Both the position numbers and the translations under genes were made by a program. Below are positions 2,320-25,190 of a stretch of 25,232 nucleotides of DNA, in pieces. Positions within the stretch are counted from its first letter, which is position 1; each line of letters starts with the position of its first letter. Origin of the DNA: a virus; IMG/VR virus record IMGVR_UViG_3300037507_002525, positions 1 through 25,232 of that record; one strand, given 5' to 3'. The notes under the pieces are model-generated. The model was not told where the DNA came from. It worked only from the letters and a program-made list of their open reading frames with translations, and did no database searches.

Positions 2320-2931
2320 TCAAGCGCCGCCCCACTTAGCCCAGCAGATCGGGCCGATCCCACGAGCGATGGACTCCTCGTTGTCGAGCCGGGTGCCGCA
2401 GATCATGCAGATGCCCGTGCGGCGTCCCCATGCTGCGGCGGCGTCACGGTCAGCGATCCGCATCTCGGGGCGGAGCTTGGCGATCAGACCGGCCTCGTAG
2501 TCCCACTGCTTCGCTGCGACGAGCCGCTTGGCGTAGGTGCGGCCAGCCTGGGAGGTGACCACCTTGGCGACCTCGCCATCCCCCAGGTCGTAGTAGCCCT
2601 CGGCCAGCTCGACCGGCTCGACCGGCGCAGCCTTGGGCTGACGGGCGGCCATCTTGGAGCGCATCGACTCGGCTGCGGCACGCTGCTTCGGGGTCAGAGA
2701 CCCGTAGCGGGCGTGGGCCTTCGCCAGCGACTGGGCGAACTCGGACCAGGTCTGGGCCTTCAGCCAGTCGGCGAGGTCCCGATCGGCGGCGCTGGCAGCG
2801 ACCTTGACTGCAGCCTTGGCGATCGCCTCGGCTTCGGAGACGATCGGGCCGCAGCACACCTGGCAGGCCGAATCGAACCCGGCGTCCCACCCGGTCCCGT
2901 CGCAGATCTTGCACGTCATGGTGTTATTCAT
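2320..2931 (-). CDS. Zinc-ribbon phage protein, DUF6011-like C-terminus, 203 aa (cassette C)
   Basis: The start is ATG 2931, six bases after the -10 GACAAT of promoter copy C, so the mRNA is predicted to be leaderless. An N-terminal cysteine cluster (CKICDGTG, then CQVCC) looks like a zinc knuckle. An Ala-rich helical middle follows. The C-terminal 30 residues hold CMICGTRLDNEESIARGIGP and then ICWAKW, the Cys-x2-Cys-G-x-x-L ... S-x-x-x-G-x-GP-x-C pattern of small zinc domains (DUF6011 type) common in actinophage non-structural proteins. The molecular role of that family is not established. Its own promoter and flanking hairpins make it a self-contained unit. Confidence 0.75.
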   Translation of the reverse strand: MNNTMTCKICDGTGWDAGFDSACQVCCGPIVSEAEAIAKAAVKVAASAADRDLADWLKAQTWSEFAQSLAKAHARYGSLTPKQRAAAESMRSKMAARQPKAAPVEPVELAEGYYDLGDGEVAKVVTSQAGRTYAKRLVAAKQWDYEAGLIAKLRPEMRIADRDAAAAWGRRTGICMICGTRLDNEESIARGIGPICWAKWGGA

Positions 2932-2937
2932 GCATCC

Positions 2938-2966
2938 ATTGTCGCAAACCCTGGCAGGGGTGTCAA
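2938..2966 (-). promoter_or_regulatory. Leaderless promoter, copy C
   Basis: TTGACA at 2961-2966, a 17-bp spacer and GACAAT at 2938-2943, with ATG at 2931. The -10 is closer to consensus than in copies A and B. The upstream block to 2990 has a single change (CTAG for CCAG on the plus strand). Confidence 0.82.
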
Positions 2967-2990
2967 GCAGAAATTGTCGCCTAGACGCGA

Positions 2991-3020
2991 CGATGCCCCC
3001 GGCCGAAGCCGGGGGCATCG
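2991..3020 (-). terminator. 13-bp-stem hairpin between cassettes D and C
   Basis: Identical in sequence to the hairpin at 2271-2300, with a CGAA loop. It lies 15 bases beyond the stop of the 101-aa gene and directly abuts promoter copy C. Confidence 0.7.
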
Positions 3021-3035
3021 AAGGGGCCGTCGGGC

Positions 3036-3341
3036 TCAGCGGGTGGCAGCCCGGGCTGCCCGGGCTGCCCGGAAGCACTCGGAAGCGTAGCGCTTGCCGC
3101 TTGCCGTGCCAACCGACCACCACTCGCCGCAGCCGCAGCAGCACTTGTTGCTTGCGGCGCGGGCGACGTCGGCGCCGGTGAGTCCGGGGAGCTGCTTCGC
3201 CGCGCACGTCGTGCCCAGGTAACGCACGTCGGCCTCGGAGAACTCCAGCGCCACGGTCCGCTTCAGCCCGCTCTTGCCGCAGCACTCGCAAGTGGTGATC
3301 TCATCGGTGATGCCCAGGATCTTGGGTCCGGTGTTCTTCAT
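3036..3341 (-). CDS. Cysteine-rich zinc-ribbon protein, 101 aa (cassette D)
   Basis: The start is ATG 3341, six bases after GACAAT of promoter copy D. The N-terminal half has CECCGKSGLKRTVAL ... RYLGTTCAAKQL, a Cys-x2-Cys-G with a later G-x-x-C as in small zinc domains related to the one in the neighbouring 203-aa protein. A second cluster CCCGCGEWW follows, then an Ala/Arg-rich tail (FRAARAARAATR). Two related zinc proteins in adjacent, identically driven cassettes suggest paralogy or selection for a shared function. Nucleic-acid binding is plausible from the zinc ribbons and basic tail but not shown. Confidence 0.7.
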   Translation of the reverse strand: MKNTGPKILGITDEITTCECCGKSGLKRTVALEFSEADVRYLGTTCAAKQLPGLTGADVARAASNKCCCGCGEWWSVGTASGKRYASECFRAARAARAATR

Positions 3342-3347
3342 GCAGCG

Positions 3348-3376
3348 ATTGTCGCAAACCCTGCCCGGGTTGTCAA
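3348..3376 (-). promoter_or_regulatory. Leaderless promoter, copy D
   Basis: TTGACA at 3371-3376, a 17-bp spacer and GACAAT at 3348-3353, with ATG at 3341. This is the first promoter after the late structural operon and should re-start transcription for the small-gene array. Confidence 0.82.
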
Positions 3377-3400
3377 GCAGAAATTGTCGCCCAGACGCGA

Positions 3401-3430
3401 CGACGCCCCCGGCCGAAGCCGGGGGCATCG
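3401..3430 (-). terminator. Hairpin ending the structural operon
   Basis: The same hairpin as at 2271 and 2991 but with one C-A mismatch in the stem. It lies 11 bases after the stop of the repetitive 383-aa protein and so probably terminates the late operon. No U-tract. Confidence 0.65.
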
Positions 3431-3441
3431 AAGGATGCCGG

Positions 3442-4593
3442 TCAGTCGCGGACGGAGCCGCTGACTGCCGGAGTGGTGGTCGATGCCGACAGGACCAGCC
3501 CGCCAGCGCTCACAGTCCCGACCGTCGACCCAGGCGGCACCACGGTGCCTGTCATCACGTGCCTGGCAGCTTGCCCGACCGTCGACACCGTCGGAGCCTG
3601 CGTCGCACCGCTGCCCGTCGCAGCCGAGGGCACGGTCAGGGCGACCGACCAGCCGGGAGCAGCAGCCGATCCGGTCGCCCCAACCGCCGGCGGGCGCGCA
3701 GCGACGCCCACCCCGACGGCCAGCGTCGCCCCCACCGCAGCGGCGACACCGGCCGAGACCACGATCAGCACCGTCGGTGCGAGCACCGCACCGGTGCCGG
3801 TGACGGTCGACGGGGTCACCGTCGTCGCACCGGTGGTCGACACCGACGGCGCCGGTGCAGCACCGGTGCCCGTGGCAGCCGCAGGAGCCGCCAGGATCGT
3901 CTCCGACGGGCCAGGTGTGGCACCAGCACCAGTGACAGCTGCAGGAGCCGCCACGATCAGCACCGTCGGCGTGAGCACAGCGCCGGTGCCGGTGACGGTC
4001 GACGGTGTCACCGTCGTCGCGGCCGACGTCGACACCGTCGGGGCGAGCACCACACCGGTGCCGGTCACTGTCGACGGAGCGACGAGCACCTCGACTGTCG
4101 GCGTGAGCACCGCACCGGTGCCGGTCACCGTCGACGGTGTCACCGTCGTCGCACCCGACGTCGACACTGTCGGGGTGAGCACCACACCGGCACCGGTGAC
4201 GGTGCCAGGGGCCGCCTGGATCGTCTCCGACGGGTCAGGTGTGGTGCCAGCACCGGTGACGGTGCCAGGGGCTGCCTGGATCAGCACCGTCGGCGTGAGC
4301 ACCGCACCGGTGCCGGTCACGGTCGACGGGGTCACCGTCGTCGCGCCCGACGTCGACACCGTCGGCGCCAGCACCACACCGGTGCCGGTCACCGTCGACG
4401 GGGTCGCAGTGGTCGACGCCGGTGGCGCACCAGCAGGCTGCCACCAGAGATCGTTGTCGACCTCGAGGGCCCACGTGGCGGCGCCCGTGACCCAGCCGAG
4501 CGGCCCGTCGATGCGGACGACCTGCTCGCCCTGGAGCAGCGAGACAGTCGGAGTCGAGGTCTGCTGCGATGCGAGGAGCAGCAGCAGACTCAT
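3442..4593 (-). CDS. Repetitive Thr/Val/Gly-rich virion protein, 383 aa
   Basis: After a hydrophobic start (MSLLLLLASQQTSTP) and a unique part ending in a Trp-rich stretch (WALEVDNDLWWQP), the protein consists of about a dozen imperfect repeats of roughly 22-25 residues. Each has a core TVTGTGAVLTPTV, variants being TGTGVVLAPTV, TGAGTTPDPSE and TGSGATQAPTV. The C-terminus is non-repetitive. Such beta-prone repeats are usual in tail-fibre or surface-decoration proteins. The same motif (SGTGRVLAPTV) closes the large minor tail protein ending at 10567, which supports a virion role. It is the last gene of the late operon, one base after the 54-aa gene. The opposite strand is also open, but all neighbours are on the minus strand. 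Confidence 0.7.
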   Translation of the reverse strand: MSLLLLLASQQTSTPTVSLLQGEQVVRIDGPLGWVTGAATWALEVDNDLWWQPAGAPPASTTATPSTVTGTGVVLAPTVSTSGATTVTPSTVTGTGAVLTPTVLIQAAPGTVTGAGTTPDPSETIQAAPGTVTGAGVVLTPTVSTSGATTVTPSTVTGTGAVLTPTVEVLVAPSTVTGTGVVLAPTVSTSAATTVTPSTVTGTGAVLTPTVLIVAAPAAVTGAGATPGPSETILAAPAAATGTGAAPAPSVSTTGATTVTPSTVTGTGAVLAPTVLIVVSAGVAAAVGATLAVGVGVAARPPAVGATGSAAAPGWSVALTVPSAATGSGATQAPTVSTVGQAARHVMTGTVVPPGSTVGTVSAGGLVLSASTTTPAVSGSVRD

Positions 4594-21910: not shown

Positions 21911-23335
21911 TCAGAAGATCGACAAGTCACCGGACGACGGCCCCTGATGGCAAGCAAGCGCATGCGCGACCGTCACCGCCACCAGCGGACAGATGTCCCC
22001 CTCGAACGACGACCGCGCCCACGACCATGTGTCACCGTTCTGCTTGCGTCGAGCAGCCGCAACTGCGTCGTCCAACGCCGGATGACGTCGAATCGCAACA
22101 CGGCCCTCCACAACAGCGTCGTAGAACACCGCGCACGCATCCCTGAAATCACGCCCGAGCAACGGACGCACCGTCACCCCTGCACGCTCCAGATCACGCA
22201 CCAGCGACCCAGCCGGACCAGACACATCTAACCCGACCGGAGTCCGCCACGTCGCCACCAACTCCACGACACGATCAACAAGCCACGACAGGCCGCCACG
22301 ATGCTCCACCAGCTCCACCCGGCCGCTGCTGTCACACACCGCAATGGCCGCAGCAGACCGCTGCGGATTCACGTCCACAGCAAACATCAGCTGGCCATCA
22401 GGCTCCACCTGCGCCGAACACACGCTGTCCCACACATGCGCCGGGAACACCCGCTCCACAGCAGCAGTCCGCCGATTACAGAACGACCGCTCGAACTCGC
22501 CAGCCGTCATCGTCGCCTTCGCATGCCGCACCACAGACACATCGATCGTGTGCCCCAACGCCGGCATGAACGACGGCCAACACGACTCATCATCAGGATC
22601 GTCATCGTCACCGATCGACCACTCGAAATAGGCAATCCCGGACTCGGCATCACCCTCAACCGACAACCGGCCAGCATCCACCTTCCGATTCAGCAGCACC
22701 GACGTGTCCGTCCCAGCCGTCGACACCCCAAGGATCTGAGCGTCTTTCCTTGTCGCCATCGCAGGGATCAGCGACTGCTCACGCCGATCATCAGTGTCCG
22801 CGAACAGCTCATCCAGCACAGCCATATCCAACGTGCGGCCATGACCTGACGTCTCCGACGACGCCAACACATCGATCCTTGACCCGCCACGCAACCGCAA
22901 CGACTCGTTGCCGACACCACGCAACACCCGCTCCACCGCGGGAGCCAACGCAGACCGTTGCAGCTCCGGAGCAAAATCATCAATCAGTTTCTTGCGGGCG
23001 TCCCACCCGGTCTGCGCCGTGTAAGCGACCCGCTGAGCGCCACCCCACCGCAACGCCCGATGAATCATCCACGACAGCGTCAGCGTCGACTTGCCCGACT
23101 GGCGAGGCACGGTCACGATCACCTCACGCCAAAACGGCCTGCCGACGTCATCGACCTCGAGGCCAACGTCCGCCACAAGCCGCTGCCACGGCATCAGCGG
23201 CTGCCCCATCAGCTCAGCAATCGCGGCAAGCTCACCGCCCCTTGAGCGGCGCTCAACGCGCCTTGGAGTCGCCCACCGGGGCTGACATGCCGTCGAGACG
23301 GCGGAGGAGGTCGCCGAAGTCGTCGCCTTGGGCAT
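21911..23335 (-). CDS. terL: Terminase large subunit, 474 aa
   Basis: I take ATG 23335; an alternative TTG/GTG cluster lies three codons upstream. The ATPase motifs are clear: Walker A VTVPRQSGKST at about residues 75-85, Walker B MAVLDELFAD at about 171-180, and a coupling-type segment GVSTAG near 203-208. The nuclease domain starts with MFAVDVNPQ (Asp321). Family-typical features are MGQPLMPWQRLVADVGLEV at the start of the ATPase domain and the late C-terminal His-rich end. The 5' end overlaps the small-subunit gene by 83 bases, which is unusually long. It packages DNA into the prohead, together with the small subunit and the HNH protein. Confidence 0.95.
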   Translation of the reverse strand: MPKATTSATSSAVSTACQPRWATPRRVERRSRGGELAAIAELMGQPLMPWQRLVADVGLEVDDVGRPFWREVIVTVPRQSGKSTLTLSWMIHRALRWGGAQRVAYTAQTGWDARKKLIDDFAPELQRSALAPAVERVLRGVGNESLRLRGGSRIDVLASSETSGHGRTLDMAVLDELFADTDDRREQSLIPAMATRKDAQILGVSTAGTDTSVLLNRKVDAGRLSVEGDAESGIAYFEWSIGDDDDPDDESCWPSFMPALGHTIDVSVVRHAKATMTAGEFERSFCNRRTAAVERVFPAHVWDSVCSAQVEPDGQLMFAVDVNPQRSAAAIAVCDSSGRVELVEHRGGLSWLVDRVVELVATWRTPVGLDVSGPAGSLVRDLERAGVTVRPLLGRDFRDACAVFYDAVVEGRVAIRRHPALDDAVAAARRKQNGDTWSWARSSFEGDICPLVAVTVAHALACHQGPSSGDLSIF

Positions 23336-23555
23336 CGGCACCAACCGCCTTGAGCGCCGCCAACGCGGCGCGGTACTGGGCCCACAGCGAAGCGTGGGCC
23401 GGGTCTGAGTCGACAGCGTCAGCGAGCCGCTGCGCCGCCATAACTGTCGCTGCGTCGACTTGTTCGAGTCGGCCGGCGGCGTGGAGAGCTGCGATGGTCA
23501 TGTCGCACGCGGCCCGGTTGGTCGTCGGCGCCTGGGTTTGGGGCTTGCGTGGCAT
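23253..23555 (-). CDS. terS: Small terminase subunit, 100 aa
   Basis: ATG 23555 is preceded by GAGGTG. The product opens MPRKPQTQAPTTNRAACDMT and is helical throughout (LHAAGRLEQVDAATVMAAQR, SLWAQYRAALAALKAVGADA), ending in DGMSAPVGDSKAR. Small helical terminase subunits of this size sit directly before the large subunit in actinophages. It should recognise the packaging site, so the repeat-rich region just upstream is a plausible target. Confidence 0.82.
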   Translation of the reverse strand: MPRKPQTQAPTTNRAACDMTIAALHAAGRLEQVDAATVMAAQRLADAVDSDPAHASLWAQYRAALAALKAVGADAQGDDFGDLLRRLDGMSAPVGDSKAR

Positions 23556-23668
23556 CGAGCACCTCTATGCACGGGTCATGCAGCGGTTATGCACGGCAGA
23601 CGCATAGTGGTTTGCATAGCGAGTGCATACGGACCCGCCTTATGCAGCCCTATGCATAATGCATTCCA

Positions 23669-23698
23669 TGCTGTTCCGTGCCGTTTCATGTCGTTTCA
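23669..23698 (+). repeat. Three tandem 10-bp units
   Basis: Three adjoining 10-mers TGCTGTTCCG, TGCCGTTTCA and TGTCGTTTCA follow the consensus TGYYGTTYCR, with a 9-bp degenerate unit (TGCATTCCA) just before. The 10-bp spacing puts one unit on each helical turn, as in protein-binding arrays. Confidence 0.65.
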
Positions 23699-23736
23699 GT
23701 AGATATGTCGATAAGGGGGGGCGGGGTCTCCGTCGC

Positions 23737-23770
23737 TATCCACAAAAAACCCACAGGTTGCCCACAGGTT
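23737..23770 (+). other. DnaA-box-like centre with CCCACAGGTT direct repeats
   Basis: TATCCACA matches eight of the nine bases of a DnaA box (TTATCCACA) and is followed by two copies of CCCACAGGTT spaced 11 bp apart. This may mark a replication origin, or may be incidental. Confidence 0.4.
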
Positions 23771-23901
23771 TTCCCCAACTTGTCCCCATGGCTGGGGGAT
23801 TTACCCAGGCCCCTCATGCATAGTTATGCAAGCCCGTTATGCATGCCGAGTGCATAGCCATACGCCGTTTATGCATTGCCAATGCATCATGCATGCAGCG
23901 C

Positions 23902-24150
23902 TCACCAGCGCCGGGACGGCACGCCGCGCCCCTTCGGCGGGTGCGCCCGCCACGTGTTGCACCAGGTGCAGGCGGCTCGCAGGTTTGCCTGGTCCCACCA
24001 CGCTCCACCCCTGCTGACTGGGACGATGTGATCGACGCAGTCAGCGATCCGATTGCAGCGCGGCCCGCCGATCTGGCAGACGTGACCGTCACGCTCCAGC
24101 ACGCTGGCCCTGATGCGCCGCCACGACCCCGAGTATGGCGCCTTAGGCAC
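23902..24150 (-). CDS. HNH endonuclease, 82 aa
   Basis: GTG 24150 opens MPKAPYSGSWRRIRASVLER. The HNH core is CVDHIVPVSRGGAWWDQANL (Asp40-His41 and Asn56), with zinc-ligand cysteines at about 25, 32, 61 and 64 (GHVCQIGG, PRCNR, ACTWCNTW). Small HNH proteins directly adjacent to the terminase genes are known in cos-type phages, where they help cut the packaging site. This supports a cos-packaging mechanism here and places the intervening repeat region in the right location for the cut site. Confidence 0.88.
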   Translation of the reverse strand: MPKAPYSGSWRRIRASVLERDGHVCQIGGPRCNRIADCVDHIVPVSRGGAWWDQANLRAACTWCNTWRAHPPKGRGVPSRRW

Positions 24151-24173: not shown

Positions 24174-24203
24174 ATCATGGGTTGCTATGGGGTGCTGTGT
24201 CAA
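24174..24203 (-). promoter_or_regulatory. Possible promoter of the HNH gene
   Basis: TTGACA at 24198-24203 overlaps the stop of the 180-aa gene (the TGA is inside TTGACA), with CATGAT at 24174-24179 after an 18-bp spacer. The preceding GC matches the other TTGACA promoters of this window. It would start about 20 bases before the HNH GTG. Confidence 0.4.
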
Positions 24204-24742
24204 GCATTGGGGCGGGTAGCGGTGCGTCGGCGGGGTTGGCGTCCGGCTGACCAGTCTGCGATGACGTGCTTCGGGGGCAGCTCGCCGGTGTCTCGGAGCC
24301 AGCGCCAGGTGCGTTGCCCGACTCGGAGCCGGCCGCCTCCTGGGCCGTCGACGCTGTAGCGCGCCTCCTCCCATGGGCCGCCGTGGCGGGACATCCATTG
24401 GCAGCCGGGGTCGCCGGTGCCTGATCCGGCGGGGGTGGGGCGGCTGGTCCAGATGTCGATGATGGTCCGGGTCCATGCGGTGCGCTGCTCGATGCCAGCG
24501 ATCCAGTCGGCGAGGTCTTCGAGGGCGCGGACGGCGGGATCGTGAGCGCGGCTGGCAGCTTGGGTGGCGGTGGGGTCGGTGTGGTGGGTGCGTGGTCCGC
24601 TGTCGGTGGGTGTGGATCGGATGCCGGGTTGTGCTGCTTGCAGTTCGGCCCAGGCGCGTTCGAGGCGGTCGCGGATGTGGTCGATGTCGGCGGCTGCCAT
24701 GGAGAGACGCCTGTGGAGGTCGCTGAGGCGCTGCGGTGTCAT
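24200..24742 (-). CDS. Conserved-type hypothetical protein, 180 aa
   Basis: ATG 24742 overlaps the WhiB stop (ATGA); the longer frame to 24961 runs antisense to WhiB codons. The N-terminus is helical (MTPQRLSDLHRRLSMAAADI, then DHIRDRLERAWAELQAAQPG), followed by a polar Thr/His-rich linker. The C-terminal half is Trp-rich: ALEDLADWIAGIEQRTAWTR, GDPGCQWMSRHGGPWEEARY and QRTWRWLRDTGELPPKHVIA. Proteins of this type sit near WhiB and HNH in actinophages, but the function is unknown to me. A short helix-turn-helix-like end (RTWRWLRDTGELP) suggests DNA binding; I would not rely on it. Confidence 0.7.
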   Translation of the reverse strand: MTPQRLSDLHRRLSMAAADIDHIRDRLERAWAELQAAQPGIRSTPTDSGPRTHHTDPTATQAASRAHDPAVRALEDLADWIAGIEQRTAWTRTIIDIWTSRPTPAGSGTGDPGCQWMSRHGGPWEEARYSVDGPGGGRLRVGQRTWRWLRDTGELPPKHVIADWSAGRQPRRRTATRPNA

Positions 24743-24990
24743 TGGGTGGTCCTTGTGCGGTCGCGGCGGAGGGCTCGTCTCTGGCGTCCACTGAGCCCGC
24801 CCCAGATGCCGTCGCGTTCGTTCGCGCGCATAGCAAGAGCGAGACAGGCTTGCTTGACAGGGCAACGGTTGCAGATGGCGCGGGCACGGTCGGTGGGCTC
24901 GCCGAGGCGCGGGTAGAAGAGTTCGGGGTCGAGGCCGCGGCATGCCGCGTCGACCATCCACGGTTCGCGGGTGACTGTTAGGGCTGTCAT
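24739..24990 (-). CDS. whiB: WhiB-like transcription regulator, 83 aa
   Basis: ATG 24990 follows GGAGG. The four cysteines of the Fe-S cluster are Cys17 (DAACRG), Cys40 and Cys43 (AICNRCP) and Cys49 (KQAC), with the conserved GIWGG at residues 61-65 followed by a basic C-terminal helix (LSGRQRRALRRDRTRTT) that binds DNA. WhiB proteins are Fe-S regulators restricted to actinobacteria and their phages. This is the strongest host indicator in the window. A phage-encoded WhiB usually modulates host or phage transcription; the target is unknown. Confidence 0.92.
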   Translation of the reverse strand: MTALTVTREPWMVDAACRGLDPELFYPRLGEPTDRARAICNRCPVKQACLALAMRANERDGIWGGLSGRQRRALRRDRTRTTQ

Positions 24991-25190
24991 GGGGTGTCCT
25001 CCAGGTCGAGTCCGGCGAATGGGTCTAGGGGGTCTGTCGGGTGGGCTTGGGCACACTCCCCATCTATAGATGGGGAGTGTGTGCCCAAGAGTGCCTTCGG
25101 TTGTGTGCCTGAGTGTGCCCGCGGTGTGTACGTGCTGGTCAGAGCGTTTTGCGTGTCGTGTGCCTGCCCTTGTGCCCGAGGCACGAACAT
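24987..25190 (-). CDS. Doubtful ORF across a regulatory region, 67 aa
   Basis: The frame from ATG 25190 ends in an ATGA overlap with WhiB, the junction seen at real genes here. However, it runs straight through a 30-bp perfect palindrome and a set of TGTGCC words. Its composition (GTHSPSIDGECAQAHPTDPL) matches no family. I keep it at low confidence: it may be a short leader-type gene, or may simply be open because of base composition. Confidence 0.3.
   Translation of the reverse strand: MFVPRAQGQAHDTQNALTSTYTPRAHSGTQPKALLGTHSPSIDGECAQAHPTDPLDPFAGLDLEDTP
25046..25089. promoter_or_regulatory. Long palindrome upstream of WhiB operon
   Basis: Positions 25052-25081 form a perfect 30-bp palindrome (arms CACACTCCCCATCTA and TAGATGGGGAGTGTG, centre CTATAG). 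Six more pairs extend it on each side after a 2-base bulge. It is a strong candidate operator or regulatory RNA hairpin. Confidence 0.7.

Follow-up and report, generated by a model that had tools for sequence, protein, structure and literature searches.

The window, by which we mean the whole 25,232-bp stretch of viral DNA that was analysed, contains a gap between the gene for the small terminase subunit (TerS) and that for an HNH endonuclease in which one short word, TATGCA or its complement TGCATA, recurs in two clusters. The locus raises the question of whether this gap is where the genome is cut for packaging, where its replication starts, or both, and of which protein reads the words. The preliminary description of this DNA had named cos and origin as candidates, with the words as binding sites for TerS, in the manner of a cosB, or for a replication initiator. 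The gap and its neighbours are as follows.

23556–23901, unstranded: intergenic region between the HNH and TerS genes, read as the cos region with flanking word arrays; its homologous centre is where relatives' contigs end.
23253–23555, minus strand: TerS, small terminase subunit, 100 aa; overlaps the start of TerL; 33-member family alignment A1.
21911–23344, minus strand: TerL, large terminase subunit (Pfam TerL_ATPase, 1.8e-07; PHROG 9, terminase large subunit, 9e-60).
23902–24150, minus strand: stand-alone HNH endonuclease, 82 aa (Pfam HNH, 5e-05; PHROG 333, 3e-15).

The order HNH-cos-TerS comes from gene calls together with Pfam and PHROG matches, and the portal, protease and capsid genes come after TerL. 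The window TerS has no Pfam match, a sequence search of solved structures returned no TerS for it, and no gene is predicted in the gap in the shared gene direction. Scans of the gap for tRNA, Rfam matches and terminators found none, nor did a promoter scan, which covered the sigma-70 type and no other. Searching with TerL yielded 80 related viral loci, and the same query found no relative among host or prophage genome contigs. Many relatives encode, adjoining cos, a fusion of HNH with a P-loop NTPase-like domain (GPP.AGK.TYV..; examples are L017:2248-2895 and L005:1375-2109, and also L030, L057, L059 and L078), whereas the HNH of the window stands alone. Elsewhere in the window, four copies of a repeat of about 116 bp (1223–1338, 2199–2314, 2919–3034 and 3329–3444; 65–91% identical to one copy) sit before small genes and contain a CTTGACA-like element, which suggests that promoters, or sequences associated with starts, are repeated here, and a 383-aa protein encoded at 3442–4593 on the minus strand consists mostly of degenerate TVTPSTVTGTGAVLTPTV-type repeats.

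Recounting in the window bore out the described arrangement of 12 words in two groups around a 155-bp centre. All 12 exact copies in the window lie within 23566–23875. As had been claimed, chance gives far fewer: dinucleotide shuffles of the whole window led to an expectation of 2.7 words with a maximum of 8, and first-order Markov sequences of the gap itself averaged 0.82, with 12 reached in none of 20,000. TATGCA is the commonest 6-mer in the gap, where inclusion of near copies (ATGCA/TGCAT) brings the number of distinct word centres to 16. The two groups stand as described, with a small correction to the HNH-side end, where near copies run to about 23897.

23566–23664, unstranded: TerS-side word group, seven exact TATGCA/TGCATA words plus near copies, mostly 10–13 bp apart.
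23815–23897, unstranded: HNH-side word group, five exact TATGCA/TGCATA words plus near copies.

Spacing between words is mostly 10–13 bp or double that, the two groups lie about 155–157 bp apart, and the best common period is 10.85 bp, a fit matched by 53 of 5,000 random placements. All 12 words are kept in L002, a contig 99% identical to the window. We consider it very likely that the words are protein-binding arrays.

Contig ends of relatives place cos within the centre between the groups. The homologous centre holds a contig end of each of three near relatives, a start in two of them and a stop in the third. A contig that spans this region, L017, has the layout of the window (words, TTATCCACAGG, a G-run, the centre, TTGTGGATAA, words, terS). 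L020 and L021, which differ from L017 by 7% and 6%, respectively, and come from other metagenomes, both start at CCCTTTATTCG, mid-centre of L017, and L092, which comes from the same metagenome as L020 and represents the HNH side (its HNH is 92% identical to that of L017), stops at ..GAGAC. The spanning contig reads GAGAC|CCCTGCCCTAG|CCCTTTATTCG, with exactly 11 nt between the two contig-end positions. Because the same 11 nt are absent from both arms, they would represent a trimmed 3′ overhang; a filled-in 5′ overhang would appear on both. The corresponding length inferred for L026 is 13 nt, to be set, like the 11 nt missing relative to L017, against a range of about 9–14 nt, and in both comparisons the missing nucleotides suggest trimmed 3′ overhangs. 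Among more distant relatives, (G/A)TGGATTTATATTC-type motifs open many contigs, and seven relatives of about 19 kb run from TerS to HNH with such a start, ending in ..GGACAC or ..CCAC shortly past HNH. Named actinophages agree: most of the records examined have HNH at their right end or close to it. Unique, fixed genome ends are thus seen as coincident contig ends in the relatives, and for the window phage by homology. With these ends, the missing overhang, the homology of the end motifs and the HNH-cos-TerS order in its favour, the earlier suggestion of a cos region is well supported, and we conclude from these comparisons that the gap is, with high probability, the cos site. Six relatives (L006, L008, L009, L010, L011 and L089) appear to carry an additional gene between cos and TerS, their left end preceding TerL by about 1 kb.

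Alignment to these ends allows a prediction for the window itself.

23717, minus strand: predicted first base of the left (TerS) genome end, CCCTTATCGACATATC, within 1 nt either way, from alignment to the physical ends of L020, L021, L006, L089 and others.
23718–23728, minus strand: predicted single-stranded 3′ overhang, GACCCCGCCCC, uncertain by about 3 nt, by homology to the 11 nt of L017 that fall between the contig ends of L092 and L020/L021.
23689–23703, minus strand: predicted TerS-binding segment, positions +15 to +29 from the end, with G21 at 23697.
23659–23698, minus strand: four 10-bp units, TGAAACGACA/TGAAACGGCA/CGGAACAGCA/TGGAATGCAT, directly downstream of the predicted cut, read from the sequence.

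We infer a cut at about 23717–23728, the overhang length being uncertain because the window centre is 3 nt shorter than that of L017. TerS of HK97 binds from +15 to +29 relative to the cut, and its Arg128 contacts G21 (PMC11331095). Of 11 left ends of relatives, one of which (L011) was shifted 2 nt by hand and lacks the dinucleotide, eight have G21-A22, a recurrence that random offsets reached in none of 20,000 trials; the window reads G21-A22-A23 if its end is 23717. Taken together, the HK97 position and the recurring G21-A22 make it likely that the TerS site lies at 23689–23703, within the centre. The four 10-bp units, a series comparable to the 10-bp GAATC series of L061, could possibly form an extended TerS contact region.

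The distribution of the words follows that of neither TerS nor HNH. L005, a contig that runs across its own cos, has the same core (GACCCCGGCACTAC|CCTCTTTTTCGTACC) without any words, and yet its TerS is 53% identical to that of the window and 57% to that of L017, and its HNH is 57% identical to both. Conversely, Mycobacterium abscessus prophages carry words at cos with a TerS that shows no similarity to that of the window, as does L128, a 39-kb contig that starts TerS-TerL and ends with HNH, three copies of TTATGCACA and a G-run. L126, an isolate prophage contig, has two word groups around a similar centre. Repeats of the cosB or pac type (lambda cosB, SPP1 pacL/pacR) would be expected to co-occur with the cognate TerS in close relatives, and in L005, which has the nearest TerS with a spanned cos, they do not. 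TerS as the reader of the words is weakened by L005 and by the word-bearing unrelated TerS families, and HNH is weakened likewise. Nor are the words a general mark of cos in actinophages, since the ends of most named phages examined are wordless. Some AT-rich contigs (L115, L118 (L170), L134 (L171) and L168 (L180)) have two TTATGCA groups about 140–150 bp apart; they were left out of the comparison because neither a terminase nor an HNH could be recognised in L170, the one stretch for which ORFs were read.

One could still envision the words as sites of the terminase, with TerS, alone or with HNH, binding both groups and looping or wrapping the DNA around the cut. The groups flank the cut almost symmetrically, phased words would suit a wrapping ring protein, similar words adjoin HNH and cos in the M. 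abscessus prophages and L128, and SPP1 gp1, whose sites pacL and pacR flank pacC, is a real precedent (PMC6316719). However, L005 retains TerS, HNH and the cos core without the words, TerS families of no similarity have them, and the conserved feature is instead the HK97-type TerS position from +15 to +29, whose key base recurs where words are absent. The cosB-like reading of the preliminary description is thus poorly supported, and we regard this arrangement as unlikely.

The features that accompany the words point rather to a replication initiator. The DnaA-box-like TATCCACA at 23737–23744 and the two CCCACAGGTT repeats at about 23750–23771 are present as previously described, and a motif scan resolved four sites.

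23736–23788, plus strand: three DnaA-box-like sites, CTATCCACA at 23736, TTGCCCACA at 23758 and TTGTCCCCA at 23780, with 22-bp spacing.
23706–23714, minus strand: fourth DnaA-box-like site, TTATCGACA.

Four of the six one-mismatch TTRTCCACA sites in the window fall in the gap, at 23706–23788, as compared with 0.14 in shuffles of the junction. Each of these sites is one mismatch off, and the words of the window lack the final CACA of the DnaA box. The middle site (23758) is a perfect TTGTCCACA in L002, L017 has two perfect TTATCCACA in inverted order, and the TTATGCACA words of L128 are one mismatch from a DnaA box. When about 360 bp around cos was scanned, DnaA-box-like sites were found in three of five word-bearing groups versus none of 23 wordless junctions; the word-bearing L126 and M. 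abscessus prophages had none. Other contigs (L113, L117, L122, L123, L125, L138, L145, L147, L151, L158 and L164) contain DnaA-box-like units (TTATCCACAGG and TTATGCACAA) at a spacing of mostly about 11 bp. Genes were read in L113 and L158 (L177), and in both a gene for a small KRGRPRK-type protein lies downstream of the array.

GC and AT skew also flip sign at the gap in both the window and L017, with genes co-directional throughout. GC3 skew is −0.57 (ORF at 24200) versus +0.47 (TerL) in the window and −0.48 to −0.81 versus +0.28 in L017, and the cumulative skew minimum lies at the gap or within a few hundred bp of it. However, the switch is present without words in P104A, Parmesanjohn and L005 and absent from the word-bearing L128, so it was rejected as a specific mark of word-bearing cos and gives only weak support for an origin. 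The genes adjoining HNH in L092 include a DnaB/AAA_25-type helicase, the domain having been called on the L017 homologue. Of the two readers first proposed, the initiator fits better than TerS, as DnaA-box-like sites accompany the words and the skew switches at the gap, albeit not specifically. Binding of the words by a replication initiator is, of the single readings, the one with the best support, and we hold it tentatively, at a little under an even chance. A bolder proposal, that paired TTATGCA and DnaA-box arrays bracket the cut as a compound ori/cos, so that the same ~350 bp would both start replication and define the genome ends, having arisen or spread in several unrelated terminase lineages, is possible and more speculative.

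Alternatively, the words could have no role in replication and act as operators. A transcription factor or nucleoid protein, of phage or host origin, would then bind them to control the late operon that begins with terS, or to bend the DNA at cos. The late genes begin directly downstream of the TerS-side group, regulators commonly have phased short words, and a WhiB gene is nearby at 24739–25056; however, no sigma-70-type promoter was found in the gap by a scan confined to that type, the HNH-side group is separated from terS by the cut, and the DnaA-like sites are left unexplained, so that we think this improbable, somewhat more so than looping by TerS. Contig ends could in principle be assembly breaks, for instance at G-runs, and the gap not cos at all, since the region is G-rich, such stretches can halt assembly, and the window and its relatives are metagenome-derived with record ends classed only as "linear" or not at all, but contigs that are independent and diverged end at exactly the same base, dozens of relatives have an end motif in common, the same 11 nt are absent from the two sides and ~19-kb contigs have HNH and TerS at opposite ends, like named actinophage records, all of which makes this very improbable.

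As a whole, the locus is on balance probably best explained as an HNH-assisted 3′-overhang cos overlaid by a probable array of replication-initiator sites. TerL, with the help of HNH, would cut concatemers at about 23717–23728, leaving a 3′ overhang of about 11 nt; the left genome end would carry TerS and the right end HNH. TerS would probably recognise a short sequence a little way in from the left end (at about 23689–23703, G21), as in HK97. Overlaid on this, the words and DnaA-box-like sites would form a second element, a pair of arrays with a phasing of roughly 11 bp, one to each side of the cut. The most likely protein to bind it would be a replication initiator, either host DnaA or a phage protein, and circularised phage DNA would thereby start replication at or near cos. 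The computation establishes the words, the position of cos by homology and the lack of linkage of the words to TerS or HNH, while the exact cut and overhang in this phage, binding by DnaA or another initiator, and a function as origin are predictions. Contig ends alone give a base-level prediction of cos, with a predicted TerS site, for uncultured phages. The comparison also points to a 7-bp word that phages with unrelated terminases have in common at cos. Should the words prove to be initiator sites, the start of replication and the packaging cut would be physically coupled, which would bear on how actinobacterial phages make and cut concatemers.

Among known systems, HK97 (gp74 HNH, gp1 TerS, gp2 TerL) has HNH and TerS on opposite sides of cos with TerS-TerL at the left end, a 3′ overhang (10–12 nt, compared with about 11 nt inferred here) and, counted from the left end, the G21 that is predicted for the window. 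It differs in that the window TerS, at 100 aa, has no sequence match to a solved TerS and in that TTATGCA arrays and DnaA-box-like sites flank the cut here, a feature that the consulted passages of two HK97 papers do not describe. SPP1, with pacL-pacC-pacR, also has sequence elements on both sides of its cut, but it is a headful (pac) phage whose TerS has been shown to bind pacL and pacR, whereas the words of the window do not track TerS. Bacterial and plasmid DnaA-box arrays and iteron origins share helically phased short sites, DnaA-box-like sites and a local GC-skew minimum, although the array of the window coincides with cos and its replication role is putative. Finally, M. abscessus prophages such as prophiGD53-3 and prophiT36-2a have another TerS family, a weak skew change and no DnaA-box-like sites in the region scanned, but they share the arrangement itself: the HNH side, then TGCATAA/TTATGCA words flanking a G-rich centre, then TerS.
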